Source: a virus
Length of the DNA: 32,901 nucleotides
IMG/VR virus record: IMGVR_UViG_3300033149_003834
Span: 1-32,901 of that record
Direction: 5' to 3' (one strand)
Numbering within the stretch: position 1 is the first letter of the stretch; the number at the start of each line of letters is the position of its first letter. The notes under the pieces are model-generated. The model searched no databases. It was not told where the DNA came from and saw nothing but the letters and a program-made list of their open reading frames with translations. Below are positions 2,586 to 28,355 of the stretch, in pieces. Position numbers and translations under genes: made by a program.

Positions 2586-2923
2586 TAGCGATCTACTGAT
2601 TTTCCAAGTATCTGCGAATTTCTGGGGGGCACGCTATCGCCTTGTGTTCTTGTCGGTGGCTTGAAAGGAGAACCATCCTCCCACTCGGCAATACCCCCTA
2701 ATTGGGACCATAGCTTCCAAAACTGATCACGGTGCACAGCTTGCCATTCTCCAATCAGCTGCTGCCTTACTCCGCCCTCATGGGGAATGGTGCACATCAA
2801 TCTCAGGCCCACTGCATGAGTAGCAATTGCCCGATGCGTCCCATCCTGCAAAACAATTTCAATCACCGTAGAATCAGGTCCCAGTAACCACTTTCGCAAA
2901 CATTTTCGCAGCCAACCTAGCAT
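2582..2923 (-). CDS. Hypothetical protein at the end of the glycan operon
   Basis: 113 aa, no recognised domain. It begins with a short amphipathic basic helix (MLGWLRKCLRKWLLG), then a beta-rich stretch (STVIEIVLQDGTHRAIATHAV), and ends in a hydrophilic PPTRTQG tail. The ATG shares one base with the stop of the glycosyltransferase before it (TGATG), which argues for coupled translation and for this start over the TTG one codon upstream. It is the last gene before the sigma-operon promoter. Confidence 0.6.
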   Translation of the reverse strand: MLGWLRKCLRKWLLGPDSTVIEIVLQDGTHRAIATHAVGLRLMCTIPHEGGVRQQLIGEWQAVHRDQFWKLWSQLGGIAEWEDGSPFKPPTRTQGDSVPPRNSQILGKSVDRY

Positions 2924-4345: not shown

Positions 4346-4346
4346 T

Positions 4347-4910
4347 TTACCTACTCCAAGGGTCATATTCATACCGATCACAAAACTCAGTTTCAGCTTC
4401 ACACACTTTCATTCGCAAGAAATCATATTCAGTAAAAGGTGTTTTCTCCCATGTATTGATTGCCGGAAATTCTCGGATGGCTTCAATCGAATGCTTCTCC
4501 ACATCGAGCATTTTGAAGAACTCCATCACTGCCCAAGGAAAATCTTCCAATCGCATCACCGTAGAAGCTCGATACTCGGCGAACATCCGACCGACTTCAC
4601 CTGGCATCCGTTTCAAGTAGCTCTTAATGAAATATCGGAAACTACCAGCCCCTCTAGCCAAAGGAACGAACTTGTCCACACAAGGCACTTGTATTGCTCC
4701 ACCTTGCAGAGCATAGAAGTAAGAGACGAGCCAATCATATGGATGGCGAACCATTGTGACCATCAGCACCTTCGGATTGTCTTTGGGTGGAGGAACATGA
4801 ACCGCAGCACTGGACACATCCCCCAGACCCAAATGATTGCAGATGCTCATAAACCAACGTGTCGCTGTCCTTGGGGGGGACGCAAATTGAAACTTTTTGT
4901 AATCAATCAT
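4347..4910 (-). CDS. PAPS-dependent sulfotransferase-like protein
   Basis: 187 aa, shorter than typical carbohydrate sulfotransferases (250-350 aa). N-terminal FASPPRTATRWF (9-20) fits the 5'-phosphosulfate loop (PRTGTTWL-like), and VRHPYDWLVSYFYAL (54-68) fits the 3'-phosphate motif with Arg55 and Ser63. The middle contains MRLEDF, a motif common in sulfotransferase families. It would transfer sulfate from PAPS to a sugar hydroxyl. It is joined by ATGA to the methyltransferase before it and lies 1 nt from kdsB, so it belongs to the glycan operon. Confidence 0.8.
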   Translation of the reverse strand: MIDYKKFQFASPPRTATRWFMSICNHLGLGDVSSAAVHVPPPKDNPKVLMVTMVRHPYDWLVSYFYALQGGAIQVPCVDKFVPLARGAGSFRYFIKSYLKRMPGEVGRMFAEYRASTVMRLEDFPWAVMEFFKMLDVEKHSIEAIREFPAINTWEKTPFTEYDFLRMKVCEAETEFCDRYEYDPWSR

Positions 4911-7647: not shown

Positions 7648-8610
7648 TCACACATTTGGCAACTCCTGCTCAGGGAACTGAACTAACATTTCTGGCAGCA
7701 CCTGATTCCAACCAATCCGTCCGAGACCTGCTATCCCCTTCTCATGATCATTCCAATACAGCCCAGCTTGATCGCACTCCATCAAAATCGGTTTCTTCTC
7801 TATGAATTGAAAAGGACCCTCTGGATTATCAGCATGCCACAGACAAACAGAGCGCCTGCTGATTGGATGGCCAGCATCGGCGAACAGCCGCATAGCGCGA
7901 TTGCTGAAGTACATTCCGTAAGCCAACATCCAATAAGTTCCATTTGCATAAACAACACTTGCCCGCTCAATTTCCCTCAGCACTCTGTAGCCCTTCCATT
8001 TAGGATCATCCAACGCCACCCCCCTCACCGTCCATGGGCCTCCCAGCTCAACACTACGGGCAACGACTTGCCTCGGTGGTACACCCCAACGATGGCCTCC
8101 TGTCGTAACGTACATGAACCAGTCCCCACTCCTTGGATCATGAAACAGATAGGGATCGCGGCAAGAATGAAGCCATTCACCTGTCTCTTCATGCCGCCGA
8201 ATCGTGTTAAATTCGGGCAGACGAGGCTCAAAGGGAACGCGCTGCAATCTAAAGTCCTTGCCATTATGGGACGTTGCGTACAAAAGAGACTGCCCCATCT
8301 TCTTCCCGCCGGCATGATAGTCCAAATGAGAGAGGAAGAGGTGAAGGATGTTCCCTTCTGGAACAACATCCCCTGCATTTACAACACCGTATTTCCTCGG
8401 AGATGTAATAACCTTGCCTAAAAATTCCCAGTGCTTCCAATCATCACTACGGAATCCAACAGCGTGACTACGACGGAGGAACATTGGAAGGCTTGTGTCC
8501 TTGTGGTATTTAGTGGTCCTAGCCAAAGTGTAGACCCACCACTGTCCCTTCCACCTGCACCAGCAAGGGTCCCAGATACGATATTGCTTGCTGTCCCAAT
8601 CTGGTGTCAT
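7648..8610 (-). CDS. GH32/43/68-like five-bladed beta-propeller glycosidase
   Basis: 320 aa, soluble, without a signal peptide. Repeated W/Y-rich blades and the clan catalytic pattern: IWDPCW (Asp14, nucleophile or base position), SCRDPYLFHDP (Asp152, transition-state stabiliser; the RDP motif of GH32/68), and EIERASVVY (Glu213 or Glu215, acid/base). Family members cleave or transfer beta-fructosyl units (sucrose, levan) or arabinosyl/xylosyl units. Its position just upstream of the sucrose-phosphate-type synthase and phosphatase suggests action on the same sugar (inference). It overlaps the preceding glycosyltransferase by ATGA. GH43-like or GH130-like phosphorylase alternatives are possible. 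Confidence 0.75.
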   Translation of the reverse strand: MTPDWDSKQYRIWDPCWCRWKGQWWVYTLARTTKYHKDTSLPMFLRRSHAVGFRSDDWKHWEFLGKVITSPRKYGVVNAGDVVPEGNILHLFLSHLDYHAGGKKMGQSLLYATSHNGKDFRLQRVPFEPRLPEFNTIRRHEETGEWLHSCRDPYLFHDPRSGDWFMYVTTGGHRWGVPPRQVVARSVELGGPWTVRGVALDDPKWKGYRVLREIERASVVYANGTYWMLAYGMYFSNRAMRLFADAGHPISRRSVCLWHADNPEGPFQFIEKKPILMECDQAGLYWNDHEKGIAGLGRIGWNQVLPEMLVQFPEQELPNV

Positions 8611-9461
8611 TTTCTTAGCCGCCGGAGGAATTTGTTTTTCACATTGTCAATCCATCTGTCCATCCCACCAACATCTTCAATCAAACATTTCTTGAACAAC
8701 GGCATCCAGAGATCATGGCCTTTCCAGGATTTTCCGGGACGGACGTTGCAATCACCGTGATAGTGGCGTATGACCACGTCTTCATCCGTTAGCTTGCTTG
8801 ACTGATACATAGGTGAACAATTGTATTTCCCATTCTCACACATCACTGTCATTTGGTCTGGGCAGAATCGCAACATCATCAAATGCAAGACTTTCTCATC
8901 AGCAATGAAAGTTTTCTTGGCAGCCAGCGTCCACTCGTACCATGCCGGCAACACTGGGGAATTGGGGGGCGTGGCCCACACTCCACCATTCACACTCGGC
9001 CATCTCTCTTGCGTTGCTCTGTCAATCAGAGTCTTATCAATCTTCCCAAATGCCTCCAATCCCCGCACTCGGCTCCTAATGATTTTCCCACCTGTCATCC
9101 AATCACAAAACTGAGTAGCAGTAAATCCACGATCTTCGGCCATTTCAAATAGGGGATTGAGACTGCCATGAATAGTTGTGTCTGCATCCAAATACAACGC
9201 CACATCTGCCCGTGATTGCTGGGCTACTTTCATCTTGTCAAGGAATTGACTGTTCTTGCCACGATATTCCGGCTCCCGACAATATATCTTCGAGACTCTA
9301 AGCCTTTTATCTGCAGCAATTATGCTAAGCAAGTTGAAGGATTCCGGCCAAGCGTGAACAATTACATCTCCCCGCCAATGATTCTTCAGTGTCCACAAAC
9401 TCACCACCAAATATGGTAAATGGGCAGGACCAGACATCAGGTAGAAAATCTCTCGTTTCAT
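8607..9461 (-). CDS. GT-A glycosyltransferase (GT8-like)
   Basis: 284 aa. Begins REIFYLMSGPAHLPYLVVSLWTL, the usual strand-helix start of GT8-like enzymes, then FLDKMKVAQQSRADVALYLDADTTIHG with the metal-binding DAD at 92-94, and VNGGVWAT in the acceptor region. RHYHGD near the C-terminus resembles the H-x-x-G-x-x-K/H motif that binds metal in GT8 enzymes. A retaining nucleotide-sugar transferase is likely; substrate unknown. The start ATG overlaps the stop of the FkbM gene (ATGA) with AAGGAG 11 nt upstream; a GTG four codons earlier sits on top of that site and is rejected. Confidence 0.82.
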   Translation of the reverse strand: MKREIFYLMSGPAHLPYLVVSLWTLKNHWRGDVIVHAWPESFNLLSIIAADKRLRVSKIYCREPEYRGKNSQFLDKMKVAQQSRADVALYLDADTTIHGSLNPLFEMAEDRGFTATQFCDWMTGGKIIRSRVRGLEAFGKIDKTLIDRATQERWPSVNGGVWATPPNSPVLPAWYEWTLAAKKTFIADEKVLHLMMLRFCPDQMTVMCENGKYNCSPMYQSSKLTDEDVVIRHYHGDCNVRPGKSWKGHDLWMPLFKKCLIEDVGGMDRWIDNVKNKFLRRLRK

Positions 9462-10153
9462 TGCAGATAGCACTCCTTGTTAATTAAGGAAATAGGGCAA
9501 GTACAATACTCGGGCCGGAATAAATACTCCCGCACATAGACGGCATCGCACTGTCCACTCTCCGTCCTATTTGTATGGGCAGTCTGCCGAACAAAGCCAT
9601 TCTTCGCCAGAAAGCAGTGAGTCTCCAATACACCACACCAGCCCGGCGAAGGCTGGTTGTTCGTCATCTCTATATTGATGACATCGACTGATTTGAGAAA
9701 ATCAACGCCCCCCTGCAAAGCAGCCAGCTCGCTCCCTTCACAATCCAGCCAGAGTAAGATGGGTTCACCGTGAACGGTAGGATCAGGGAACATCTTGTCC
9801 AGAGTTGTGATAGGAACGGTGAATTGCACATCACCATCTTTAGACTGCCTGCGTTTGTATAAGGATGCTCCATCTTTGTGCTTTTTGCGACTGTTCAACA
9901 ATACCTCGCCTACCATATTTCCGATTGCGCAGCCAAACAATGTACCGGGATACTTCCCCTCCAATCCTGCGATAAGTTCCGGATGGGCCTCACATCCTAC
10001 AAATTTCACGTTAGGCCAGCAATCCCTCATTACATCCACTTCCTGATAATGAACGCCAATTCCTACCTGAAAAACAACTTTTGGCCTCCAGTTCAGCAGC
10101 CCGGCAACCTTTGCAACAGCTACCCCACTACGACGCAGCAATCTTGATCCCAC
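9458..10153 (-). CDS. FkbM-family SAM methyltransferase
   Basis: 231 aa. VVFQVGIGVHYQEVDVM (motif I), FVGCEAHPELIAGL (acidic end of strand 2), GCAIGNMVGEVLLN, then VPITTLDKMFPD and the family signature LWLDCEGSELAALQGG followed by INIEMT. FkbM enzymes O-methylate sugars and polyketides and are common in phage and bacterial glycan loci. I chose GTG at 10153 because it has AAGGAG 7 nt upstream and lies 14 nt after the radical-SAM-like gene; the ATG at 10195 overlaps that gene by 28 bp without a ribosome site. Confidence 0.85.
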   Translation of the reverse strand: MGSRLLRRSGVAVAKVAGLLNWRPKVVFQVGIGVHYQEVDVMRDCWPNVKFVGCEAHPELIAGLEGKYPGTLFGCAIGNMVGEVLLNSRKKHKDGASLYKRRQSKDGDVQFTVPITTLDKMFPDPTVHGEPILLWLDCEGSELAALQGGVDFLKSVDVINIEMTNNQPSPGWCGVLETHCFLAKNGFVRQTAHTNRTESGQCDAVYVREYLFRPEYCTCPISLINKECYLQ

Positions 10154-10167
10154 AACAATTCTCCTTG

Positions 10168-10872
10168 CTAGAATTTCTTTCTTCTTCGATGGCAAGTCTT
10201 ACAAACCGGCAAAGTACGGACCCTTTTACGAAGATCATCTTGCAATGCTTTCATTCTCGGGTACTCCCGCTGCATAATGGACCCCAGTGCCTCTTCATTC
10301 ACATTGCCAAACGTCACCGTCTCGGCATAGTCAACACAACATAAGCCCACATTGCCGGAGGCCCGAATCGTCAAGTCATTTAGGGGAGCAAAACAATCAC
10401 GGTAACTGTCAGGCCCATCTCCAGGATACAAAATCGATTGCTTCAACTGGGCCCGGCCTACCCTAGCTGCTTTCATCCTGCCCACACTACGCAGTCTCTT
10501 CCTCTCCGCCCTGCTATACCCGCTCACCACTAAACTGCTCAAACCAACATCAAACAGTTCTCCGGCTAATGTCCTATTGAGATACCAACCGTTCGTAATA
10601 AGCAAGGGCTGAATACCGGGCAATTCTTGGGTAATGAATCCAATCAGCCAATAGAGTCGAGGGTCAATCAGGGGTTCGTTGAATGCATGAAAAGCTACCT
10701 TCTTTCCATTACCCCACCCCATTCCTTTCAACTCTTCTATAATCTTTTTGATTGTGTTCAGTGGTAAAATGTGGACCTGTTTGAAAGTATGAACAGGGCA
10801 CAACTTATGCTCTCCCTGCAGCGGACAGCGATTTGATAGCTCAAACGTGATTCGTGCTACGTCTTCAAACAC
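10168..10872 (-). CDS. Radical-SAM/SPASM-like protein with an unusual cysteine motif
   Basis: 234 aa. The N-terminal ITFELSNRCPLQGEHKLCPVH resembles the start of radical SAM barrels, but the usual CxxxCxxC is replaced by C-x8-C with a neighbouring His. The middle has FHAFNEPLIDPRLYWLI and PLLITNGW, matching the 'GEPLL' and 'TNG' strands of radical SAM proteins. The C-terminal part (LTIRASGNVGLCCVDY, FGNV, VCKTCHRR) matches SPASM/Twitch cluster domains. Role unknown; it could modify a peptide or a sugar. GTG 10872 (GGAGG four nt upstream, 16-bp overlap with the previous gene) is preferred over starts that overlap that gene by over 100 bp. Confidence 0.65.
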   Translation of the reverse strand: MFEDVARITFELSNRCPLQGEHKLCPVHTFKQVHILPLNTIKKIIEELKGMGWGNGKKVAFHAFNEPLIDPRLYWLIGFITQELPGIQPLLITNGWYLNRTLAGELFDVGLSSLVVSGYSRAERKRLRSVGRMKAARVGRAQLKQSILYPGDGPDSYRDCFAPLNDLTIRASGNVGLCCVDYAETVTFGNVNEEALGSIMQREYPRMKALQDDLRKRVRTLPVCKTCHRRRKKF

Positions 10873-11657
10873 ATTGCCTCCGCTACTGCTTCTTTGATTC
10901 CTCTTTGTGTAGAGCGAATTTTCCAGCCCAGCCGCTTCACTTGGATTGCTTTCACTCCGAACCATCCTCTCGTCGCCATATACCAAAGAAAGCCATCTTG
11001 AGATGGGACCGGCATCTGACAAGGACCGCAAACTGCACTTGCCCCCACAGCGCATTTACGAGTGAAGTCTGTTTTGAAGAAAGCACACCAACTCACCGTG
11101 CGTTTGTGATTGAGCCGGCTGGCTCCCGGCTTCGGTCTGAGATTCAATGGAGGATGCAAAGACCATGGTCGCAACTTGTCACGGTGCTTTTCAACCCACT
11201 GGTCCAAAAAGACCATCTGGTCCGGTGGCTTGGTAAAAGACCATCGCGGGCCAATGAAGGCCGGCTCTCCCTCAAACCAATCATCCTCAATCCAGCAGTT
11301 CTGTCCCATAGCAATTGCATCCGTATCAACTTTGAGCCAGTAGGGAGTCAGAACCTGCATAGCTGGAACGAAGACATAACCCGTCAGCATTTTGTTGCGC
11401 TGGGGATTGGTCCATTTGCTTCCCCCATCCCCATTATACTCAGTTCTCAGAGGAGGCCAAGGAACCACGTTGAGATCCGGAACTTTCACCACACTCCGAA
11501 CTGCAGCTCGGTTCAGACTATCACAATCATAGAAGACAAGCCACGGGCGTTTGAAAAGATCAGGTTTGTGCAATTTCCAAGTAGGTAATGTCCAAGATAG
11601 CTGCTGCAAATGCTTAGCATCTACTCCCACCACTACCGTAAAATCAGGCACTCCCAT
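10857..11657 (-). CDS. Glycosyltransferase-like paralog 1, with DxD
   Basis: 266 aa. VVVGVDAKHLQQLSWTLPTWKLH and RPWLVFYDCDSLNR, then YWLKVDTDAIAMG with a DxD-type DTD at 111-113, WFEG, RWSFTKPPDQM, VSWCAFFKTDF and CGPCQMPVPSQDGFLWY. The nucleotide-sugar-transferase-like layout with a DxD suggests a GT-A enzyme, but no named family is obvious. It is a tandem paralog of the next gene upstream (11644-12480). Start ATG has GGAGGAACTG directly upstream and overlaps its neighbour by 14 bp. Confidence 0.7.
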   Translation of the reverse strand: MGVPDFTVVVGVDAKHLQQLSWTLPTWKLHKPDLFKRPWLVFYDCDSLNRAAVRSVVKVPDLNVVPWPPLRTEYNGDGGSKWTNPQRNKMLTGYVFVPAMQVLTPYWLKVDTDAIAMGQNCWIEDDWFEGEPAFIGPRWSFTKPPDQMVFLDQWVEKHRDKLRPWSLHPPLNLRPKPGASRLNHKRTVSWCAFFKTDFTRKCAVGASAVCGPCQMPVPSQDGFLWYMATRGWFGVKAIQVKRLGWKIRSTQRGIKEAVAEAMCLKT

Positions 11658-12480
11658 CAGTTCCTCCTTTCAGCACGTCCATGGAGAAGCTGCGGACAGG
11701 ACGATGGTCCCAACCACACTTCTTCATGTTGACCCGTTTGATTCCCAAACCAGCCCGCTTAGCAACATACCAAAGGAAACCATCTTGAGATGGGACTGGC
11801 ATCTGACAGGGACCACAAGTCCGCTCGGCAATAAGCGAGCAGTCCTTTGTAAAATTTGTTTTGAAGAACGCACACCAACTGATTATTCGACGGTGATCAA
11901 TTCGATCCGGCCTACTGGGGACAAGATTCAAGGGAGTAGTGCTAGCGAGCCCTCCCACATCATTCTCATTATTTCTTACCCATTGGTCCAACTTCAGCAT
12001 TTGATCTGCCGGCTTTGTGTAGCCCCAGCGATGAGAAATGATGACTGGATTGCCCTCAAACCAATTCGGATCAATCCAATCATCTTGCCCAGTTGCAAAC
12101 ACACAGCAATCCAACTTCAGCCAATAATGTGTTTTTACATAGGCGTCAGGGATGTGAACGAAGCCGGCCAACATCTTGTAGCGTTGTGGGCTGCTCCAAA
12201 GTGCCTCATATTGCTGGTTCTCCGTCTGTCCATCAATTGTCTGTGGTTTACCAAAGAACACGCCGTCAAGATGCGGCCATGGATATGTTTGCAAGTTTGG
12301 GTGGTCCACTATATGATGAACATTGTCACAGTTCACCTCATCACGGTCGTAGAAAACAATCATCGGATGGTTCAATAGAGAAGGTTTGTGCTCCTTCCAA
12401 GTCGGCCAAGTGCGACAAAGCATGGAAAGATGCTTGTTATCAACACCTACCACTACCGAGTAATCTATTTCACCGACCAT
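11644..12480 (-). CDS. Glycosyltransferase-like paralog 2, DxD lost
   Basis: 278 aa, co-linear with the 10857-11657 protein: VVVGVDNKHL, PTWKEHKPSLL, SPQRYKMLAGFVHIPDAYV, WFEGNP, TKPADQM, ISWCAFFKTNF and the long shared block GPCQMPVPSQDGFLWY. At the metal-binding site the first copy has DTD; here the same position reads DCC (124-126), so the second acidic residue is gone. Either this copy is inactive or metal-independent, or it acts with its partner. ATG 12480 aligns with the start of the paralog; the ATG at 12555 would add 25 unrelated residues and overlap the cupin gene by 91 bp. Confidence 0.7.
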   Translation of the reverse strand: MVGEIDYSVVVGVDNKHLSMLCRTWPTWKEHKPSLLNHPMIVFYDRDEVNCDNVHHIVDHPNLQTYPWPHLDGVFFGKPQTIDGQTENQQYEALWSSPQRYKMLAGFVHIPDAYVKTHYWLKLDCCVFATGQDDWIDPNWFEGNPVIISHRWGYTKPADQMLKLDQWVRNNENDVGGLASTTPLNLVPSRPDRIDHRRIISWCAFFKTNFTKDCSLIAERTCGPCQMPVPSQDGFLWYVAKRAGLGIKRVNMKKCGWDHRPVRSFSMDVLKGGTDGSA

Positions 12481-12887
12481 AGGTTTCCGTACTGTCTCAT
12501 TAGCCTGTGTGCAAGGTCGTCCAAATGCTCCACTTTGCTCATCCCTCCTTGGCACAACCGGATGATGTCGTCGTTCCTAACCGAGCTCCCATCGGGGAAG
12601 TATTCCTCGATTGCTTCACCATCCTCCAGCACTTGAAATTGATGGACGATGCCGCTACGAACGTCCAAGGTGTTTCCATTTGTCAAAATCTTCCTATCAA
12701 TCTTCCAAGCATGGAAAGTGACAATAGCAATGATCCCAGAGCGGACAATGAATCGATTGGCCCGATCTTCATGATAGTGAATACTGCAATACCCACCAGC
12801 TTTCAACTCCAACTCGTGGAGGCTATGCAAATCCGATTCATGGAGGCATCGTGTCCGGCCCCAGAACTTGTCTTCCCAGCTACTCAT
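12465..12887 (-). CDS. Cupin, mannose-6-phosphate-isomerase type II-like
   Basis: 140 aa, single cupin barrel. WGRTRCLHESDLHSLHELELKAGGYCSIHYHEDRANRF has the His37-x-His39 metal pair, and a later VRSGIVHQFQV has the third His. Small proteins like this resemble the isomerase domain of mannose-6-phosphate isomerase/GDP-mannose pyrophosphorylase and sugar-binding cupins. Within this operon it may isomerise or bind a phosphosugar, possibly supplying mannose-6-phosphate or fructose-6-phosphate (inference). ATG 12887 overlaps the upstream stop as ATGA; ATG 12899 is an alternative. Confidence 0.75.
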   Translation of the reverse strand: MSSWEDKFWGRTRCLHESDLHSLHELELKAGGYCSIHYHEDRANRFIVRSGIIAIVTFHAWKIDRKILTNGNTLDVRSGIVHQFQVLEDGEAIEEYFPDGSSVRNDDIIRLCQGGMSKVEHLDDLAHRLMRQYGNLWSVK

Positions 12888-13930
12888 TTCTTGTACCATT
12901 GTCTCAAATCAAACGGTTTTTGGGGTACATCCACCGTGACCATATCCATTGCTATGTCAAAGGGAACATAAGGAAACGCTCGCAGTCTTGATTGCCCATT
13001 GCAATTGAAAATGGACAATCCAAATCTCTCAAACACCCCATCCTTCTGCATCCGGCATAGCCAATCATTCACAATCCTAAACTGCCTGTTGTTTGAAAAG
13101 CAAGTTTCTTCATCTCGCTCTTCTTCAAAAGAATAGTTGTCACAAAGATCCCTTGTAGGGTCCATTCCAAAATCGATGCCCAGTAGGAAGATTTTCCTCA
13201 CTCCCATATAGTATAATAATCGGATTCCGATCAACATTGTGCATACTGTCTTTTCTTCCCCAGTTCTGTCCACTCCAGCATTGTGATTGCCCCATGCAGC
13301 TTGGGGGTCCAAAAAGAAGGAATTATCCGGTCTCAGCCAAGCCCGTCTAGCAAAGCCCCAGACATTTGGGGCATCACAAGCGGACATCCTTTGTCCACCG
13401 ATTACTAAAGGAACAAACTCACCGTCAGGCCGCTTGTGACGGAGCCTGCCCCGCCTCCTCTTCAGTTTGGGGACGGGAACAAACTTCATGATTCCAGGGT
13501 CCATCCATATTCCATCGTGAAATTTGGACGGTGGATCGGAACAGACAAAGGCCTGTGGATGGAAGCGATCATGACCAGCTACGTTATTTACGCACAGAGC
13601 CCAGCTACCAGGGGTGTTTAAGCGCTCCAAAGGCAAATCATTAGCGGAGGGCCCTCCCCCAACAAGGAAGGCAGAACGGCCAATTAAGAGGTTGTGTAGA
13701 GCTTTGGTTGGTCTAGAGGCCCTATCGACAACAAACAGGAAATCTGAGAACCTTTCAGAGAAATTCTCATCTCCCACGTGCAGCTTCTCTTTGCACCCTC
13801 GGCAGGAAGCTATTTGGGCCTTGTTCCTTCGTCTAGTGCAGACATCATGGACGCGACAGATGTGGACTGGTTCGTCACTATCCACAATCTCTTTACTGCG
13901 AAGTTCTCCAAGATACACACAATGAATCAT
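12884..13930 (-). CDS. DUF115/MAF-like sugar transferase with N-terminal zinc motif
   Basis: 348 aa. Residues 22-50 hold a cysteine/histidine cluster (CRVHDVC, then C-x2-C), a small zinc-binding arm often seen in glycosyltransferases of phage and environmental glycan loci. From about residue 80: SAFLVGGGPSANDLPLERL (glycine-rich nucleotide loop as in DUF115/MptE-like and motility-accessory-factor proteins), then ALCVNNVAG, AFVCSDPP, and KIFLLGIDFGMD. MAF proteins add pseudaminic or legionaminic acid to flagellin and related enzymes are sialyltransferase-like. A CMP-sugar would fit with KdsB in the same cluster (inference). First gene of the glycan block; starts 6 nt after the previous stop. 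Confidence 0.72.
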   Translation of the reverse strand: MIHCVYLGELRSKEIVDSDEPVHICRVHDVCTRRRNKAQIASCRGCKEKLHVGDENFSERFSDFLFVVDRASRPTKALHNLLIGRSAFLVGGGPSANDLPLERLNTPGSWALCVNNVAGHDRFHPQAFVCSDPPSKFHDGIWMDPGIMKFVPVPKLKRRRGRLRHKRPDGEFVPLVIGGQRMSACDAPNVWGFARRAWLRPDNSFFLDPQAAWGNHNAGVDRTGEEKTVCTMLIGIRLLYYMGVRKIFLLGIDFGMDPTRDLCDNYSFEEERDEETCFSNNRQFRIVNDWLCRMQKDGVFERFGLSIFNCNGQSRLRAFPYVPFDIAMDMVTVDVPQKPFDLRQWYKK

Positions 13931-20595: not shown

Positions 20596-21825
20596 TCATG
20601 TTTGGCTTGACCAACTTGAACTTGAGACTGAAGAACTAGTGGACAACGATGATGATCGAGATGACGAGTCTCCTACCTTATCCAATGCTACCCAAATCGT
20701 ACCAGTAGCACTTCCACTGATTGGACCATAATCGTAAGCATCTGGAAGTTGACCGGCACCGCCCCCGCTTTGTTGCCAACAATCACCAGTCTTGTTATTT
20801 GGGGCATCTGATAATGTCCATCTGTTAGTACCACCACTGTCCCACCATAAATAGAACAATCCATTGCTATAGTAATTTCTATTGTTGAGAGATCCAGCTC
20901 GCGTATATTCCCCCAATACTATGGAAGGACTAACACCAGACCTAACTGGTCCACACCAAAGCGGTTCCAAATTGCTGGAGCTACTTGACTGGGAACTGCT
21001 ACTGCTCTCAGAACGCGAACTCACCGAACTACTGCTGGATTGGCTGGAGAAACTGCTGCTCTGCGAACTGACTGAGCTGCTGCTAACAGAACTTATGCTG
21101 GAAGCACTGGAAGCGCTTGAGGCGCTAGACCAGCTCACCAAACTGGACGTGCTATTGCTGATGCTAGAGGAGGAAACCGAACTGGATTTGCTGCTGAGTG
21201 AACTGGATTCGCTGCTGAGTGAACTACTGCTGGAACTGACAGACGATGATTCTGAAGAACTGCTCTCATTGTCATCATGCCTACCCAATATCCAAATACT
21301 GTAGTTGACAGCCCCGCCAAATGCCCGCAATCGAATACGATGACTGCTGCCGTCCACTACATCAAACCCAGACTCCGCAGGCTGGTACATTAGTATCACA
21401 CCACCACCCCGCAGCGCCCCACCTGTAGCTACCGTATGGCTGCCCATTGGCGTCCAACCATTGGTAGGATCAGGTATAACTTCCAGCTGTCCTGCAAGAG
21501 CCACATCGTTATTATTCTTGATTTTGATGGCGACAATCTCTTCCAAAGCCATCGCTTGTCCAACAATATCATTGCCAGCACCAGCGCCAGCATCAAACCC
21601 AGCAAAATCATACAGATCCAAAGTGATAGCCCCGCCGGAACCCAGATCCTTGGTTAACCATTGCCAAGCTCGATTTGCCTGATTTGCACTGACACCATTT
21701 GTCAAGGTGTCATTAGTGTTTCCATTCACTGCTCCACTAACAATCACCCCATCATCCATAGTATTGCGAACATTCGCCAGCAATTGGGCAATCACTTTTG
21801 GGCTGGCTACACTTCGATTTGCCAT
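20596..21825 (-). CDS. Structural protein with long Ser-rich linker
   Basis: 409 aa in three parts. Residues 1-186 are a beta-rich domain (WQWLTKDLGSGGAITLDLYDFAGFDAG, NDIVGQAMALEEIVAIKIKN, QLEVIPDPTNGWTPMG, RLRAFGG). About 187-284 is nearly pure Ser with E, Q, V, L, I, W and K interruptions, including an S-W-S-S-A-S-S segment. Then a small domain (LNNRNYYSNGLFYLWWDSGGTNRWTLSDAP ... TGTIWVALDK) that resembles repeat carbohydrate-associated domains in viral and environmental proteins. A short Ser tail ends SSSWSSQT. Location between terminator and tube genes points to a virion surface protein. RBS region has the usual spacing to the preceding gene. Confidence 0.6.
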   Translation of the reverse strand: MANRSVASPKVIAQLLANVRNTMDDGVIVSGAVNGNTNDTLTNGVSANQANRAWQWLTKDLGSGGAITLDLYDFAGFDAGAGAGNDIVGQAMALEEIVAIKIKNNNDVALAGQLEVIPDPTNGWTPMGSHTVATGGALRGGGVILMYQPAESGFDVVDGSSHRIRLRAFGGAVNYSIWILGRHDDNESSSSESSSVSSSSSSLSSESSSLSSKSSSVSSSSISNSTSSLVSWSSASSASSASSISSVSSSSVSSQSSSFSSQSSSSSVSSRSESSSSSQSSSSSNLEPLWCGPVRSGVSPSIVLGEYTRAGSLNNRNYYSNGLFYLWWDSGGTNRWTLSDAPNNKTGDCWQQSGGGAGQLPDAYDYGPISGSATGTIWVALDKVGDSSSRSSSLSTSSSVSSSSWSSQT

Positions 21826-21836
21826 GGTTCATTCCT

Positions 21837-22337
21837 CTATACCATCACTGGAACATCAAGCCTGAAGAGGTAAGAAATGGTCCACTGATATTCGTCATCT
21901 CCTGTGCGAATCCCAAAATCGTTCTGATACTGAGTAATCAAATGCGCTCCACTGTCCAATGTCAGAGGTTGGGGTCTCATAGTTGGGTGTCCCCCGAACT
22001 CTTGGATGATCACTTCTGCCAATGCCGCCGCTATTTCCTTTGCTGTTTGGCTGTTACCATCAATCACCCTAGCATGGATTCGGAACTCCCAAGGGATGTC
22101 ATGAATTTCATGCTTCTCATTTGTGGAGTGTCCCGTCATTCGGACTGTTGTTGTGCCCGCTTCTTGCACAAAAACACAATAGGGAAATGGCTGTTGTGGG
22201 GCAGCTTCACCGTCATTCAACACTTCGTAGATAGTTCTATTCGCAGCAGACCAATATCGATTGAACTCACCGTCTAAACCGCGGGCATTCCACAATGTCT
22301 GGATTGCTTTATGAAGTGCCGCAGCAGCTACACTCAT
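21837..22337 (-). CDS. Tail terminator / completion protein (DUF3168-like)
   Basis: 166 aa. N-terminal helix AAALHKAIQTLWNARGL, then FPYCVFVQEAGTTTVRM, EFRIHARVIDGNSQTAKEIAAALAEVII, and a C-terminal strand pair ending in YQWTISYLFRLDVPV. This alternating layout is that of small tail terminator proteins (HK97 gp10/gpU-type neighbours, DUF3168). It follows the gp10-like neck gene by ATGA overlap, as in siphoviral head-tail modules. RBS GAGGAATGAACC lies upstream of the next gene. Confidence 0.72.
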   Translation of the reverse strand: MSVAAAALHKAIQTLWNARGLDGEFNRYWSAANRTIYEVLNDGEAAPQQPFPYCVFVQEAGTTTVRMTGHSTNEKHEIHDIPWEFRIHARVIDGNSQTAKEIAAALAEVIIQEFGGHPTMRPQPLTLDSGAHLITQYQNDFGIRTGDDEYQWTISYLFRLDVPVMV

Positions 22338-22798
22338 CTGATTGGTCCTGTCAGAATCTTGACAACCGTCGGACGCTCCTTTTTGAATGTCCTTTTTAGG
22401 AAAGACCTATCCAATCTCTTGGAAGTCTCCAGAATCAACCCATAGTCCAAAGGTGTCCCAACATATCCTTCATACACTTTTGGGGAAACCTCTTTCACCT
22501 CTCCGAAAATCGTGTTTCTTAGGAGGGATGTGTCCACCTTCGGAAATTCCCCCCTTTTGCTCCGATTCGATACAACCAACCTCTTATTCACAGATCTTTT
22601 TGTCACTGGTCGATTGATATTGTGAACTACCTTTGTTTGGAGAAACTTCGTCGCTAGTTCAACTCTCATCTTCAAGGACATTGCAACCGTATTGCTGACA
22701 TTTTCAATGAACCAGTCTATCCGAACCAGCCGCGCATCAATTTGGGCAGCCCGCTTGTAACGAGCCTCCAAAACAGCATCTGACGGTCTAACAGCCAT
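22334..22798 (-). CDS. HK97 gp10-like head-tail neck protein
   Basis: 154 aa. Residues about 40-154: SLKMRVELATKFLQTKVVHNIN, TSLLRNTIFGEVKEVSPKVYEGYVGTPLDYGLILETSKRLDRSFLKRTFKKERPTVVKIL. The G-T-x-Y/D-Y-G-x-x-L/E-x-G-T region and a C-terminal helix are the gp10-like tail-completion/neck pattern. Gene order MCP, connector, gp10, terminator supports it. The ATG immediately follows the TAG of the 200-aa gene. Confidence 0.78.
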   Translation of the reverse strand: MAVRPSDAVLEARYKRAAQIDARLVRIDWFIENVSNTVAMSLKMRVELATKFLQTKVVHNINRPVTKRSVNKRLVVSNRSKRGEFPKVDTSLLRNTIFGEVKEVSPKVYEGYVGTPLDYGLILETSKRLDRSFLKRTFKKERPTVVKILTGPIR

Positions 22799-23401
22799 CT
22801 ATCCCCCGGATCGCGATAATCTATCCAGCCAATTCGGAAAATCTTTCTCATATTGTGGTTGACCATTGTGGATCCGGCTGCCTGGATTCAACAAGAAATT
22901 TCCCGGCAGTTCCTCAATGTCTTCCATGTCCGGTTTTGGCCCCTTCACCATTTTTGCATAGTTCGTGTCTAACATCCAAAGCAATTCCCGACAAAGTGTC
23001 TTCATTCGGTGGACATCCAACTCCCCCGACACAGACGGAACTCCTTGCAACTTGGAGCCAAAATCCAACGTACCCAAATTCTCCAGTCCCTTGCGTATCT
23101 GCTCGCACAGATTCTCATCATCACACAAAGGATCGATGATTGTGTAGATAAGCTTGTCCGGATTGACATGAATCTGTTGGCCGGGAATCTTCGGCAGCAC
23201 ACCAGAGCTTTTCAGCTGATTGGCCGGAATGCCTCTCTCCCCAATTTTGGAGATAATTACTGGCTTGGACGCATCAATCCTTCCACGTAACCGACATCCT
23301 GGAATGCTTTGCAACATAACATCAGCATTCCTAGGAGTGTCAATTTCCACCCCAAACGGCAGGACAATTCTCGCTTTCTTCTTCTCAATAACGGTAGACA
23401 T
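22799..23401 (-). CDS. Hypothetical connector-region protein
   Basis: 200 aa, no recognised domain. Begins with a basic strand (KKKARIVLPFGVEIDTP), then GCRLRGRIDASKPVIISKIGERG, PKIPGQQIHVNPDKLIYTI, an acidic middle and a Pro-rich end. It sits where head completion proteins are coded (between major capsid and gp10-like genes), so a head-tail connector role is suspected from position only. ATG has AGGAG 10 nt upstream. Confidence 0.5.
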   Translation of the reverse strand: MSTVIEKKKARIVLPFGVEIDTPRNADVMLQSIPGCRLRGRIDASKPVIISKIGERGIPANQLKSSGVLPKIPGQQIHVNPDKLIYTIIDPLCDDENLCEQIRKGLENLGTLDFGSKLQGVPSVSGELDVHRMKTLCRELLWMLDTNYAKMVKGPKPDMEDIEELPGNFLLNPGSRIHNGQPQYEKDFPNWLDRLSRSGG

Positions 23402-23438
23402 CTTTCATACTCTCCTAGTTCTCCTAATGACTGAATAT

Positions 23439-23477
23439 GGTCCTGCTGGTAGCGGAGAATTGACCACCAGCAGGACC
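23439..23477 (-). terminator. Strong hairpin after the capsid gene (attenuator or mRNA end)
   Basis: Perfect 12-bp stem GGTCCTGCTGGT / ACCAGCAGGACC with a 15-nt loop, 15 nt after the capsid stop (23477-23439 on the minus strand). No T-tract follows (ATATTC), so it is not a standard intrinsic terminator. It could be a partial terminator, an RNase-blocking 3' end stabilising capsid mRNA, or a processing site. Loop and stem are too long for chance. Confidence 0.55.
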
Positions 23478-23491
23478 TTGCAAAGGATGGC

Positions 23492-25174
23492 TTAGGCTTG
23501 CGCCGTAGTGGTCAGAGCAGCAGCAGCAGCTCGCTCCAACTGACCACCATATCGAGCCATCGCTACAATCAACATCTCGTTCCGTCGAATCAGGGTTTGT
23601 CCTTCAGTGCTTGTCCGGATGACCAAGCCCCGGCGGCGGTACATTCGATAGCGACCCAAGACGGCATAGAAAATCTGGCTATTCGTCAGACTCTCATTGA
23701 TCTTGTAAGGACGCTCCATCCATTGATAGCTAGAGTAATCCATTCCCCCAAGCCGTCGGGCATCAGCAGCTCCAACAGGAATTGCTCGCGCTCGCTGATA
23801 ACTGGTCTCCGTTCCACAAAAGACCACCGTATTCGCTAAGCTGGCAACGTGCTCATTTTTGGGCACCGTGAAACGTAAGGTCTCGTAGTTTCCAAGGGTG
23901 GCGGCAACACCACCAAAGGCTACCGCAGTGGCACCAGAGTTCATGATGCCTTGGGGCTGAGTCGTTCCATTGCCCGTAGCAATCACGTCGTCCAAATCTT
24001 CCAGCAATCGCTCACCGTATTGGGCAGTAATGACCTGCCCAAAATCTATTGGCGAATCACTGATAAAGTCCAGTCCGATTTGGAAGGCCCCTTCCCACCG
24101 AAAAATGGTGGTATCGAAGGCAGCCACATAAGCCGTGGTGTTGAATAGCGGGACGTTCGTACTGTCCACACCACCCCACGTTCCAGTCACCTTACCAACG
24201 CTGACGCCTTCGATCCGCCGGCCGCGATCGATCGGAACCACTTTGACCAGTGGATATAGTTCACCATGAAGCAAAGGAGCCTCAATTACATCATCGTCAA
24301 AGACGATAGGCACTGCTTCCACACCACCACTGGCTCCACCAATGCCGTCATCGATCAGCTGCTTCTGCTCCAACTCTGTCAGCTTCCGATTGCAGATGTT
24401 GGCGAAATTGGAATCACCTTCACCAATGAAGCCGCCCCAATTCATGTTTTCCATAGCATGGAAAATCAATTCTTTGTCGTGGTTGTTGAGCTTCTGGAAA
24501 CCGATCGTTCGACTGCCACCAGCTTGGGAAGTGGAGACCATGAACTTGGCATATGCCCCAATCACCGCCTTTTCACGATCGGAGGACACATCCAATATCC
24601 TTCCACCCTCATCATAGTCCCGAACAGGCTGACCTGAGAGTGGATGTTTCTTCCCACCCTTGGTAAACTCAGGATAGATAAGGGCCGTTTTGGTCGTGCT
24701 GTATTGCTCAGCAGCAGTTTTGACACGGATGTCCAAATCGTCAGCGTTGGACATCATGCCCATATTGGCGATCATTTTGGCAAAGCGACTGGGCTGAACC
24801 TTCGTTTTGACATCCTTCTTTGCCTTCTCGGGCTCGGCCTTTTCCTCTGCATCCTTTTTGGCCTTCTCAGCCTTGAGTTTCTCTTCGTCATCTTCCTTAG
24901 ACTTCTCTTCGTCATCTTCCTCAGACTTCTCTTCCTTGGGTTTTTGTAAATCAACCAGTTTGGTCAGGCCATTTGCAATAGCGTCCAGCTTGGCCCCAAA
25001 CTCATTTGCTTCCTTGTCTTCCTTGTCAGTCTGAAGTTCTACGAACTTCTCAGTCGTCAGATCGTCGTTCATCAACGCCTCCCCGACGGCCTTGCGGATT
25101 TCATCGTCTGTAGCATCTTCCTTAATGCCACAGTTACCGATAGTCCACTTCTTCAACGCGACTGTCAATTTCAT
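23492..25174 (-). CDS. HK97-fold major capsid protein with N-terminal delta domain
   Basis: 560 aa. Residues 1 to about 140 form a helical, highly charged Glu/Lys-rich region (repeated EEKSEEDDEEK and KAKKDAEEK units) that likely serves as built-in scaffold and is removed by the protease coded just upstream. The rest fits HK97 fold: PIVFDDDVIEAPLLHGELYPLVKVVPIDRGRRIEGVSVG, DFISDSPIDFGQVITAQYGERLLEDLDDVIATGNGTTQPQGIMN, VVFCGTETSYQRARAIPVGA, MYRRRGLVIRTSTEGQTLIRRNEMLIVAMARYGGQL. AAGGGGTTCAA precedes the ATG. Gene pair protease, capsid is standard. Confidence 0.93.
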   Translation of the reverse strand: MKLTVALKKWTIGNCGIKEDATDDEIRKAVGEALMNDDLTTEKFVELQTDKEDKEANEFGAKLDAIANGLTKLVDLQKPKEEKSEEDDEEKSKEDDEEKLKAEKAKKDAEEKAEPEKAKKDVKTKVQPSRFAKMIANMGMMSNADDLDIRVKTAAEQYSTTKTALIYPEFTKGGKKHPLSGQPVRDYDEGGRILDVSSDREKAVIGAYAKFMVSTSQAGGSRTIGFQKLNNHDKELIFHAMENMNWGGFIGEGDSNFANICNRKLTELEQKQLIDDGIGGASGGVEAVPIVFDDDVIEAPLLHGELYPLVKVVPIDRGRRIEGVSVGKVTGTWGGVDSTNVPLFNTTAYVAAFDTTIFRWEGAFQIGLDFISDSPIDFGQVITAQYGERLLEDLDDVIATGNGTTQPQGIMNSGATAVAFGGVAATLGNYETLRFTVPKNEHVASLANTVVFCGTETSYQRARAIPVGAADARRLGGMDYSSYQWMERPYKINESLTNSQIFYAVLGRYRMYRRRGLVIRTSTEGQTLIRRNEMLIVAMARYGGQLERAAAAALTTTAQA

Positions 25175-25238
25175 TTGAACCCCTTTTCAGTTGACAGACA
25201 TAACGAACAATTCACCACGACCGTCGCGGCGTTATTGT

Positions 25239-27053
25239 TTACTCTGTAACGGATTTTCGCAGCTTCCCTGTATTAAAATCAGGCCAGCTTGGATGGTATT
25301 TCTGTCCCATCAACTCCCGAAACTGTTTCGCTCTCTGTTCCTGAGTATCAATCTGCTCCATTGCCCCCAACACCTCCATCAATCTACTTCTCTGCTTCAC
25401 CGTAGCACAAGCCAAGACAACTGCTGTTGCGTCATTCACCGTGATCTGCTTAGGTTCATCTGCCCCGAGACTTTCCAGCACTCGTCCCAACCTGGACATC
25501 GCTTCTCGGAGGGTTGCTTTGGCTGGCCGTGGAATTTCCATTTCCACCACTTCACCTATAGCATCAATGGCGTCCCGGATCAGGGCCTCATTTCTTTTAC
25601 TGAGAACACGACCACGTTTCTGATTCTCTGACCCAGCTGAAACCTTGTTTGCAACAGAAGCTTTTGCCCCTCGATCCGCTATCTTAGGGCCAATGCTTCC
25701 GCTATCATCACCTCCCTCTGCTCCAGTCTCACTATCTGTGCCTAGCGCCAATGTTCCATCCTTACTAAAATCCTTCTCTTTCAACTCTTCTTGGCTCAAG
25801 CTATGAATATGACCGTCCGCTTCCTCTACTTTGAAAGCCTTAACTTTGTGGGTGTGGCCGTCAGCCTCTCCCGCAGTCCCATTCCCTTCGTCATCCAACA
25901 TTACTGCGTGAGTGTGGCCGTCGGCTTCTCTTGTCCTTCCCTCATAACCCTTCACTTCCGTGTCTTCGGTCGCTTTGTCTCTTTTGTGTTGATCTGCATC
26001 GGCTTCTTTTGATGCGGTGGAGGAGTCTTTTCCTCCTCCATCCTCTTTGCTTCCACTTCCGGATTTGTTCTCATTACCAACTTCCTCCCCATTGACTGTT
26101 ATTTTCAGGTCAAGTTCCACGGGCACTTGAGTAGGCCGCTTCTCCCGCAAGGTCTTTCCGTACTCCTTCATCATGGGGGAATGCAGCTTGCCGCCTTCGA
26201 CCAAAGACAGAATCACTTCCTCTGTCCCAGCATCGACATTGGACGGGACGCTCACCAAAGATTCCTCCATGATCTCCCCACGCTTCACATTAAACCCACC
26301 ACCGTTCTCAGCCTTGAACTTGGTGTATTCCAAAGCACGGAACCCGTGGGAGAAGCGCCCCATACTATTGTCCACCATCACTGCTGCGTCATGGCATAAA
26401 TCATTCATGTCCACAATGCAACTAAGCAATTTCAATTCCTCTTCGTTATGTGTCACTTCCATCAACATCTTCCCAATCGGCAAAGTGGGAACGTGTTGCC
26501 ACAACAACAGCATCTGGGGGTCAACCTCCATCCCTCCTGGATGTAGCACATCACCATCCCTATCCTTCCGGGGGGTAATGAGTGTATGCTTGAACACCAT
26601 CAAAGTATTCTTGGGAAGCTCCACATATTCATATTGCTTGATTGAAGAGCCGCCCTGCCTGCTATATTCAATCTGGTCCACCACCATATCCGGACTGCTA
26701 AAGACTAGTGTGTTTGCAGCTTTCCGCAAAACATCATCGAAACTCGTCTGCCTATTTGCTGCAAATCGATAGCAGAGGGCATTTCCAACCCCTTCCTGGA
26801 GTGTCCTCACATAACAATCAGCCGTCAAAATCCCATAGCCAAACTCTGTCTTCTTCTGGGAACGGGCTCTGATAGCGTCCAACAGTTTATCGTTGATACT
26901 CATTTTCTGTTTCCGTGATTGGTCAAACTGACTTCCACACACTGCCAAACGTTGATTGTTGTCAGGAAACTCAGTACGCATTGTTGGATTTGACATGCAA
27001 CGACTAACAAACTCCGCTCGATTCTCATCTTGCGATGGCTTTGGCAAAGGCAC
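25239..27053 (-). CDS. HK97-family prohead protease with large C-terminal tail
   Basis: 604 aa, longer than usual. Residues 1-47 hold a small domain (PKPSQDENRAEFVSRCM ... DNNQRLAVCGSQF) common at the start of phage head proteins. The protease is about 145-290, with VFKHTLITPRKDRDGDVL, candidate His187 (LLLWQHVPTLPIGK), Ser235 in FSHGF, and MEESLVSVPSN with Glu263/264. From about 320 the sequence is disordered and charged, with three EADGHxH repeats (376-382, 396-402, 411-417). A helical region near the end may act as a scaffold segment. Starts at GTG sharing one base with the previous TAG. Confidence 0.82.
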   Translation of the reverse strand: MPLPKPSQDENRAEFVSRCMSNPTMRTEFPDNNQRLAVCGSQFDQSRKQKMSINDKLLDAIRARSQKKTEFGYGILTADCYVRTLQEGVGNALCYRFAANRQTSFDDVLRKAANTLVFSSPDMVVDQIEYSRQGGSSIKQYEYVELPKNTLMVFKHTLITPRKDRDGDVLHPGGMEVDPQMLLLWQHVPTLPIGKMLMEVTHNEEELKLLSCIVDMNDLCHDAAVMVDNSMGRFSHGFRALEYTKFKAENGGGFNVKRGEIMEESLVSVPSNVDAGTEEVILSLVEGGKLHSPMMKEYGKTLREKRPTQVPVELDLKITVNGEEVGNENKSGSGSKEDGGGKDSSTASKEADADQHKRDKATEDTEVKGYEGRTREADGHTHAVMLDDEGNGTAGEADGHTHKVKAFKVEEADGHIHSLSQEELKEKDFSKDGTLALGTDSETGAEGGDDSGSIGPKIADRGAKASVANKVSAGSENQKRGRVLSKRNEALIRDAIDAIGEVVEMEIPRPAKATLREAMSRLGRVLESLGADEPKQITVNDATAVVLACATVKQRSRLMEVLGAMEQIDTQEQRAKQFRELMGQKYHPSWPDFNTGKLRKSVTE

Positions 27054-27349
27054 TATATCTCACGCCCAGTATAGTAATGAATGTTCAAATTTCCATCAAC
27101 GCCCCCAGCGCCATCCCGTACAAACTGAATTCTCAGGAGATCCGCAAGTAGAAACGATTTAGGACGTTCCGTCGTCAGCAAAAGCATGCCAGTTGCTATC
27201 GTAGGAGCGGGATTACCCGCTGTCATCGTATACCGAATATGATTAGTGTCGCTTTGCAATTCAGCAAAGTTTGCTCCGGGCGGGATTGTCAGAGCATCTA
27301 CACCCTGAACAACTGCTGTAGCAGCAACCTGTTCATAATCAAGATACAC
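27053..27349 (-). CDS. Small beta-sandwich virion protein
   Basis: 98 aa. Contains ALTIPPGANFAELQSDTNHIRYTMTAGNPAPTIATGMLLLTTERPKSFLLADLLRIQFVRDGAGGVDGNLNIHYYTG, the pattern of a small beta protein often seen in phage head modules, reading 'LT.P.GA..A.......VRY..DG..PT...G..L......' and ending in 'A..LNV.YY'. It may decorate the head or form a virion accessory. I use GTG 27349, with AGGGGG 6 nt upstream, starting 1 nt after the stop of the 98-aa gene; TTG/ATG starts at 27388/27385 would overlap it by 38 bp. Confidence 0.65.
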   Translation of the reverse strand: MYLDYEQVAATAVVQGVDALTIPPGANFAELQSDTNHIRYTMTAGNPAPTIATGMLLLTTERPKSFLLADLLRIQFVRDGAGGVDGNLNIHYYTGREI

Positions 27350-27350
27350 T

Positions 27351-27647
27351 TCAAACCCCCTTTGTTCGCTTAACCGCAGTGGCATCAATCATCACAAGCT
27401 GTTGAATAGCTCTCTTGTCCTCCGGCGTGATCCTTTCCATCCACTGTATCACCGTTCTAATATTCCACTGATCACTTCCGTGGGGAATCCCTTCACGCGC
27501 CATGGATAAATCCCGTTTGACGCCCAATCGTTTCAAGGCCTCATATGAGCAAGATCGTAGCTGACTGACCTGAGTCATGGGGGCTAGTTTGATCAAACGA
27601 ATCACATTGTTGAGATATCGCTTGGACATTTCGGTAACACGTGACAT
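27351..27647 (-). CDS. Hypothetical protein in head module
   Basis: 98 aa, helical: SKRYLNNVIRLIKLAPMTQVSQLRSCSYEALKRLGVKRDLSMAREGIPHG, then WNIRTVIQWMERITPEDKRAIQQLVMID. No domain recognised. ATG has AGGGATTGACTA upstream and lies 18 nt after the Ser-rich gene. Translation is continued by the next gene with almost no gap. Confidence 0.6.
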   Translation of the reverse strand: MSRVTEMSKRYLNNVIRLIKLAPMTQVSQLRSCSYEALKRLGVKRDLSMAREGIPHGSDQWNIRTVIQWMERITPEDKRAIQQLVMIDATAVKRTKGV

Positions 27648-27665
27648 TAGTCAATCCCTTTTCTG

Positions 27666-28355
27666 CTATGACTGGCTCGACCAGGACGAACTGGACATTG
27701 AACTGCTAGATGATGAAGTTGAAATGCTGCTTACCGATGAAGCAGAGCTGGCAACACTCGACCAGGACGAACTGGACGCACTAGAAACAGACGAACTAGA
27801 AGCAGAACTAACACTAGCACTGCTACTTGACACACTAGACTGCGACGAACTAGATGCCGAACTTCGCAAGCTTGACCAGGATGAACTGGAAATGCTGGAC
27901 GAAGATTCGCTAGAAACAGAACTTGAGCTGGATGCGCTAGACTGGCTTGAAGATGAACTGGAGCCAGAACTTGCGCTGGATGCGCTCGACCAGGACGAAC
28001 TAGATTCACTGGAAACAGAACTTGAGCTGGATGAGGACAAATCCTCCATATGAAGGATCTGCAATCTATTTTCTTGACTACTATATGGTCCCGGGAACTG
28101 CAAATCAGCTGTTTGAAAGATCAACTGGTCCGGCGCACTAGTCGTCCCATCGGCCAATGTGTCTTTCAAGATTGCTTGGAAAATGTCATCATCGGGCAAA
28201 ACTTGGGTAGTCAGCTCCACAGCCGGTCCCAGAGTGGCATTGATTGTGAGAGCAGGGGGCGTATCATCACCCGCCCGTGAAACCCTCCGAATCGTCAGCA
28301 AACGACTCGCGAGGCCGGAGGGAATTCCCAGATGAAATGTGACGTTCTTTGGCAT
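27666..28355 (-). CDS. Ser-rich structural protein
   Basis: 229 aa. The first 106 residues are a compact beta domain (NVTFHLGIPSGLASRLLTIRRVSRAGDDTPPALTINATLGPAVELTTQVLPDDDIFQAILKDT) resembling phage surface proteins. Residues 107-229 are more than 70% Ser with regular Ala/Val/Trp/Gln/Glu breaks, ending SSSSWSSQS, very close to the end of the 20596-21825 protein (SSSWSSQT). The Ser tail could be a flexible spike or an O-glycosylation substrate. ATG 28355 has TTTGGAG 7 nt upstream. Confidence 0.65.
   Translation of the reverse strand: MPKNVTFHLGIPSGLASRLLTIRRVSRAGDDTPPALTINATLGPAVELTTQVLPDDDIFQAILKDTLADGTTSAPDQLIFQTADLQFPGPYSSQENRLQILHMEDLSSSSSSSVSSESSSSWSSASSASSGSSSSSSQSSASSSSSVSSESSSSISSSSWSSLRSSASSSSQSSVSSSSASVSSASSSSVSSASSSSWSSVASSASSVSSISTSSSSSSMSSSSWSSQS

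Follow-up and report, generated by a model that had tools for sequence, protein, structure and literature searches.

Polyserine arms on predicted virion proteins of a phage lineage and an accompanying sugar cassette that may glycosylate them

The stretch of DNA analysed here (the window) covers positions 1-32901 of the 46,535-base virus record IMG/VR IMGVR_UViG_3300033149_003834. It encodes two putative virion proteins of 409 and 229 amino acids (aa) with long serine-rich arms, together with a cassette of sugar genes. The minus strand carries all of the virion genes, and the 409-aa and 229-aa genes lie on it, as a preliminary description of the sequence had stated. In reading direction the order is 730-aa protein, 1020-aa protein, portal, head morphogenesis protein, 229-aa protein, prohead protease and major head protein; neck and terminator-like genes follow, then the 409-aa protein, a 142-aa protein, the tape measure and the sugar genes. 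Portal, head, protease, neck and tape-measure genes were named from PHROGs matches, and "terminator-like" denotes position and size only.

The preliminary description had reported serine regions of about 98 and 123 residues with near-identical ends, and ordinary composition in the other genes of the window. The arms measured 97 and 123 residues, the ends read SSSSWSSQT and SSSSWSSQS, and the two top serine shares per 50 aa were 0.78 and 0.74, compared with 0.22 in the next minus-strand open frame. The 409-aa protein required one correction: its long serine region is internal (residues 188-284) and not only terminal, lying between an N-terminal domain (domain A) and a domain of ~100 aa, and a separate 23-aa serine tail (residues 387-409) provides the SSSSWSSQT end. 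In the 229-aa protein an N-terminal domain (domain B) is followed by the arm (residues 107-229) that ends in SSSSWSSQS; translation was taken from the ATG at 28355, and initiation at a TTG lying 12 bases further upstream would lengthen the product to 233 aa. Both arms use all six serine codons, and identical neighbouring codons are below expectation (0.16 against 0.20 in the 409-aa arm, 0.05 against 0.17 in the 229-aa arm).

A third serine-rich protein, of 730 aa, lies beyond the window (record ~41868-44060; L003:9067-11259) and shares 79% DNA identity with the C-terminal part of the 409-aa protein. It combines a choice-of-anchor Q domain (NF041518, 26.3 bits against a cut-off of 25), a serine linker, a copy of the LW.GP domain found in the 409-aa protein, a very long array of SSSSSQ and, at the C-terminus, repeats of PVDK(V/I)L(E/K)NIG. 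The locus L091:1661-3130 encodes a 490-aa serine array whose "..GI(L/V)EFP.." end resembles the 730-aa protein.

To establish how widely the arms occur, IMG/VR was scanned with two- and many-sequence alignments of domains A and B, yielding 59 contigs including the window. The two domains define one phage clade (52 of 59 contigs), in which an arm follows domain A in 41/41 contigs with a complete 409-type gene and domain B in 36/36 contigs with a complete 229-type gene. Seven contigs contain only distant homologues of domain A (E 1e-34 to 1e-15), and these stop 1-11 residues past the domain and are armless. Comparison of arm length among phages, a check proposed in the preliminary description, revealed variation from 22 to 285 aa among arms of up to 300 aa; longer arms were excluded from the arm statistics, and four more genes run off their contigs. 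Most clade arms are C-terminal and end at the stop codon, those of the 409- and 730-aa proteins sit between folded domains, and some are almost pure serine. The motif SSSS[WLVFYH]S occurs within the last 18 residues of 21/46 A genes and 15/37 B genes.

Serine arms are also attached to further clade proteins, for example the positional counterpart in L012 of a 296-aa protein whose copy in the window is without an arm. L103:4798-10765 contains three domain A genes in a row, one with the domain C-terminal behind a serine tract and two joined to long further regions. Such variety of proteins and positions indicates that the arm behaves as a portable module. L012 additionally has the 229-type gene in tandem duplicate with serine arms on both copies (L012:96-1423), and it was the only one of 79 related loci from a tape-measure scan with true serine arms; a serine match in another of these loci, L050, appears to be an artefact of reading out of frame. 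Scans that used domain A or the LW.GP domain as a single sequence recovered no relatives, nor did tblastn of a phage collection with these two, the portal and the 730-aa protein. A pattern search for domain A in bacterial genomes gave 54 matches, none of which was confirmed, so that neither a prophage nor a firm host can be named. A literature search of partial coverage returned no publication describing such arms in phage virions.

The codon pattern of the window recurs across the clade. Of 66 distinct arms, 55 use all six serine codons and none fewer than four, and adjacent serine codons are identical at a frequency of 0.156 where 0.239 is expected from usage. The mixture of codons and the shortage of identical neighbours indicate selection on the protein, with serine content kept and DNA repetition avoided, and rule out slippage or a DNA-repeat artefact as the origin of the arms.

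The two arms of one phage resemble each other. Among 23 phages with both genes (28 before near-identical ones were collapsed; for the window only the serine parts of the arm entered the permutation, contrast and 14-mer tests), non-serine composition and C-terminal tails were closer within than between phages, with 0/20000 permutations as extreme. Lengths of the A and B arms correlate (rho 0.65, n=23). Independent contrasts on the domain tree gave r=0.61 for length, and for the shares of serine, threonine, isoleucine and glycine r was 0.72-0.84 (serine 0.74, threonine 0.73, glycine 0.84); correlations for alanine, leucine and histidine were not significant. Base composition was rejected as the source of the likeness, as the correlations remain after removing record GC. 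Over the last 12 codons, within-phage serine codon identity was 42/166, against 0.208 expected. Covariation of this kind would be expected from one trans-acting factor reading both arms, and also from shared selection on the surface chemistry of the particle.

The domain A gene stands among the tail genes and the domain B gene directly upstream of the prohead protease gene; where the two proteins would sit on the particle is judged from this gene order alone. Domain A is predicted to be a beta sandwich with weak jelly-roll matches and has no PDB match at E<=0.001. Its top structural match was the VIA row (Z 7.1, root-mean-square deviation (rmsd) 3.0, 101 aligned), and comparison with the HFTV1 turret gave Z 6.2 (rmsd 3.9, 101 aligned) and with the KHP40 cement protein Z 6.1 (rmsd 3.2, 103 aligned); as these matches are weak, calling the predicted domain a decoration protein is a guess. 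Domain B is FN3-like (Z 9.5, rmsd 2.0, 76 aligned).

Behind the tail genes lies the sugar cassette (Table 1). Its first gene encodes a putative transferase, MptE/Maf-like, for ulosonic acids activated with cytidine monophosphate (CMP). GT2 and GT4 glycosyltransferase genes of this phage score over their Pfam cut-offs, and those termed GT266, GT303 and GT8-like are putative; the 187-aa protein, which lacks a Pfam match, is possibly sulfotransferase-like, judging from a motif. In 14 tabulated relatives, some with truncated loci, the cassette follows the tail genes and keeps a single gene order and strand; the exceptions are few (G020, whose FkbM gene stands behind the GT8-like gene, and G016, where copies of GT2 are spread). 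The MptE-like gene was present in 14/14, the cupin in 13, GT266/303 in 14, the FkbM methyltransferase in 11, the GT8-like gene in 14, the 187-aa protein in 10, the KdsB-like gene in 8 and GT2 in 11. Window genes resembling sucrose-phosphate synthase (GT4) and sucrose-phosphate phosphatase adjoin each other at 5475-7456; these two, a radical-SAM gene and a 320-aa gene occur in 0/14 of the same relatives.

Table 1. Coordinates of the serine-rich proteins and of the cassette genes in the window.
Feature	Coordinates	Strand	Remark
GT2-type glycosyltransferase, cassette	2923..3657	-	
KdsB-like CMP-sugar synthase, 254 aa, cassette	3638..4402	-	
187-aa cassette protein	4347..4910	-	no Pfam match
GT8-like putative glycosyltransferase, 288 aa, cassette	8607..9473	-	
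FkbM-type methyltransferase, cassette	9458..10195	-	
Putative glycosyltransferase GT266 (266 aa, conserved D.D), cassette	10857..11657	-	
Putative glycosyltransferase GT303 (303 aa), cassette	11644..12555	-	paralogue of the 266-aa gene
Cupin / mannose-6-phosphate isomerase C-terminal-like, cassette	12465..12899	-	
MptE/Maf-like putative CMP-ulosonate transferase, 348 aa	12884..13930	-	first cassette gene
C-terminal Ser tail of 409-aa protein, end SSSSWSSQT	20599..20667	-	
Small LW.GP domain (~100 aa) between two Ser stretches of 409-aa protein	20668..20967	-	second copy in 730-aa protein
Internal Ser arm of 409-aa protein, E187 then residues 188-284	20974..21267	-	
Domain A of 409-aa protein, residues 1-186, predicted jelly-roll-like beta sandwich	21268..21825	-	homologues in 41 armed contigs with complete gene, window included
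C-terminal Ser arm of 229-aa protein, 123 aa, end SSSSWSSQS	27669..28037	-	
Domain B of 229-aa protein, residues 1-106, FN3-like	28038..28355	-	

Arms and cassette occur together. The MptE-like gene was found in 19/35 armed records, window included, in 17 of them behind domain A and in two (G009, G034) elsewhere, upstream of domain B. In an audit of the 31 armed records with a placed domain A, the gene was present in 17/17 with at least 9,363 bp behind domain A and in 0/14 with less, this cut having been chosen after the data were seen and the coordinates copied by hand from earlier tables. Outside the audit were G006 (domain A cut by the contig end), G027 and G034 (domain B only) and G009 (domain A near the contig end). 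The gene occurred in 0/7 armless records, four of which are long enough to judge, and in 0/40 armless or unrelated tape-measure relatives (40 chosen from 79). The preliminary description had named serine arms in relatives lacking glycan genes as evidence that would speak against glycosylation; the comparison instead placed the cassette in 17/17 armed and 0/4 comparable armless records. PF00535 matched 14/42 records including one armless record, so the presence of a generic GT2 does not diagnose arms.

The association extends to bacteria. When 84,980 species genomes were scanned with the alignment of MptE-like proteins, 13 loci emerged: four in Planctomycetota, six in Verrucomicrobiota (one titled Akkermansia), one in Bacteroidales and two others. 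Serine-rich open reading frames (at least 50% serine over 40 aa, in a frame of at least 100 aa) were present in 6/13 of these loci (190.5 kb) compared with 1/71 control stretches (866 kb) of the same genomes, which were not chosen as RHS-rich or surface-protein islands devoid of an MptE-like gene; one control, L231, was dropped since its contig carries an MptE-like gene. Restricted to stretches of at least 8 kb, the counts were 6/11 loci and 1/47 controls (Fisher p 7e-5), and the sole serine-rich frame in the controls looks like an out-of-frame artefact. The serine-rich frame lies 137 bp from the MptE-like frame in L189 and 226 bp from it in L187. Of the six bacterial serine-rich proteins, four matched RHS-repeat or DUF6531 models, for the most part weakly, and one gave a weak lectin-like match. 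L179, L180 and L186 contain further cassette homologues, and among the queries used no homologue of domain A, domain B or other virion proteins was detected in the 13 loci. At L189:8876-10777 the bacterial MptE-like protein is fused to a PF05159 (capsule synthesis) domain and adjoins a serine-rich RHS-like protein; PF05159 was found in 0/27 records searched for it.

Sequence comparisons suggest which reactions the cassette might perform. PF01973 (MptE-like) matched 11/16 phage cassette members at E up to 5 (best 0.002), with 0/42 records over its cut-off; the bacterial relatives reached at best 22.5 bits, also under the cut-off. Passages of PMC11339370 describe Maf enzymes as O-glycosylating serine or threonine and accepting CMP-activated 3-deoxy-D-manno-octulosonic acid (CMP-Kdo), and the PF01973 domain of Maf as resembling Cst-II. 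The KdsB-like protein aligned with the NCBIfam KdsB model at a best E of 8e-46, and as its 156 bits are under the cut-off of 193 it is termed KdsB-like only; its presence in the cassette would make an ulosonic acid, for instance Kdo, the most economical donor. The MptE-like and GT266 queries gave no tblastn match at E<=1e-3 in a 50,697-record phage collection that includes hundreds of mycobacteriophages.

Two observations concern the record outside the window. A short run of unknown bases (in L003:1-300) lies just past the window end at 32901, and a 260-aa frame at the edge enters it, with X residues in its translation. The 1020-aa protein (L003:6008-9070) has weak matches to a beta-galactosidase trimerisation domain and to a major tail protein.

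Taken together, these results support, with a modest balance of probability in its favour, a model in which the phage O-glycosylates polyserine acceptor arms on its virion proteins by means of its own sugar cassette. The arms would be disordered polyserine acceptor tracts, modified inside the infected cell by enzymes whose genes lie behind those of the tail. The MptE/Maf-like enzyme would most likely start or extend the modification with a CMP-activated, Kdo-like ulosonic acid, which the KdsB-like enzyme would help to supply, and the GT266/303, GT8-like and GT2 enzymes, the FkbM methyltransferase and the 187-aa protein might elaborate the glycan. The finished virion would then bear a flexible glycan brush on head and tail. 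The arms, their conservation and codon pattern, the likeness of the two arms in a phage, the company of the cassette and the bacterial neighbourhoods are observations; what the enzymes do, which sugar they use, that the arms are glycosylated, where they sit on the virion and any benefit are deduced from them. The idea of the preliminary description that the arms are glycosylation targets is thus partly supported, the support being indirect (cassette 17/17 against 0/4; bacterial loci 6/13 against 1/71), and its image of spikes is unproven.

Several results weigh against this model. Because the armed phages form one clade, the link between arm and cassette may simply reflect co-inheritance and is not independent proof. 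The KdsB-like gene is present in only 8/14 tabulated relatives, some of them truncated, and 7/13 bacterial MptE-like loci have no serine-rich frame. The window MptE-like protein scores 15.3 bits against the PF01973 cut-off of 34.6, for which reason membership of the Maf/MptE-like family is not claimed, and the best matches of profile A7 among PDB sequences are weak ones to Cst-type alpha-2,3/8-sialyltransferases (E 0.015), in an alignment that pairs GPS and G(I/V)DF stretches. The tree of the two domains has 5/20 inner branches well supported, and the tree-based sign tests for covariation are underpowered, with at most four usable pairs among those listed. The arms also share some DNA 14-mers in 14/23 phages, so recombination accounts for part of their likeness. 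In the nine phages without a shared 14-mer the arms are still alike (p=0.0001); recent gene conversion is thereby ruled out as the whole cause in these nine of 23 and contributes in others.

We consider it rather unlikely that the arms are plain, unmodified polyserine tails or linkers, acting as soluble entropic spacers to extend or shield virion proteins in the manner of the linkers in Saccharophagus-type carbohydrases. Polyserine linkers between domains of carbohydrate depolymerases are described in passages of PMC2386152, the 409- and 730-aa arms are similarly placed between folded domains, and near-pure serine arms would suit such a role. However, most clade arms have nothing behind them, a linker needs neither a constant sugar cassette nor covariation within a phage, and the serine-rich neighbours of the bacterial MptE-like gene would be left unexplained.

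That the cassette acts elsewhere, altering the host envelope polysaccharide for receptor masking or superinfection exclusion while the arms are linked to it by shared lineage only, seems improbable. Loci for envelope polysaccharides typically contain Kdo cytidylyltransferases, cupins and GT2/GT4 enzymes, which counts towards this explanation, as does the confinement of arms and cassette to one clade, whose counts are not independent; the bacterial neighbourhood association counts against it, lying outside the clade at loci where no virion homologue was found and the serine-rich proteins are mostly RHS-like. Finally, adhesive arms, whose serine-rich tract and SSSS[W/L/V]S end would bind host or matrix glycans directly with the sugar genes unrelated, are very improbable, since the recurring short end with its hydrophobic residue (21/46 A, 15/37 B) and the FN3-like domain B are offset by the absence of the motif from more than half of the genes, serine content being the constant feature.

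If phage-encoded glycosylation of the arms is correct, the clade would be a case of dedicated, replaceable acceptor arms that travel with a sugar cassette, and the bacterial loci would point to a matching pairing of enzyme and serine-rich protein in Planctomycetota and Verrucomicrobiota. A broader proposal, which we offer tentatively, is an undescribed polyserine O-glycosylation system with a divergent MptE/GT42-like ulosonate transferase, possibly used by Planctomycetota and Verrucomicrobiota on serine-rich RHS-type surface proteins and by the phage lineage to build a glycan brush on several virion proteins. The transferase would offer a candidate enzyme whose acceptor, polyserine, is very simple, and a glycan coat, if present, might serve in shielding, adhesion or environmental persistence.

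To our knowledge, virion glycosylation is known from few phages. According to passages of PMC12363180 and PMC11256854, glycosyltransferases encoded by mycobacteriophages Che8, Corndog and Myrna modify capsid and tail-tube proteins. The phage described here likewise carries glycosyltransferase genes, but the long polyserine arms that would accept the sugars belong to separate proteins. The likeness to Maf flagellin O-glycosyltransferases lies in the weak PF01973/Cst-type similarity and in the CMP-sugar synthase of the same cassette; here, however, the score is under the family cut-off and the acceptor would be virion polyserine rather than flagellin. Long serine-rich tracts, present in this phage and its clade, are also the O-glycan carriers of the serine-rich repeat proteins (SRRPs) of Gram-positive bacteria in portions of PMC6973325 and PMC7948813, but SRRPs are exported surface adhesins whereas the arms belong to putative virion proteins. 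The polyserine linkers of Saccharophagus, Cellvibrio and Teredinibacter enzymes, serine-dominated low-complexity tracts in the accounts given in parts of PMC2386152 and PMC2699552, join domains, whereas most arms of the phage clade are free C-terminal tails.

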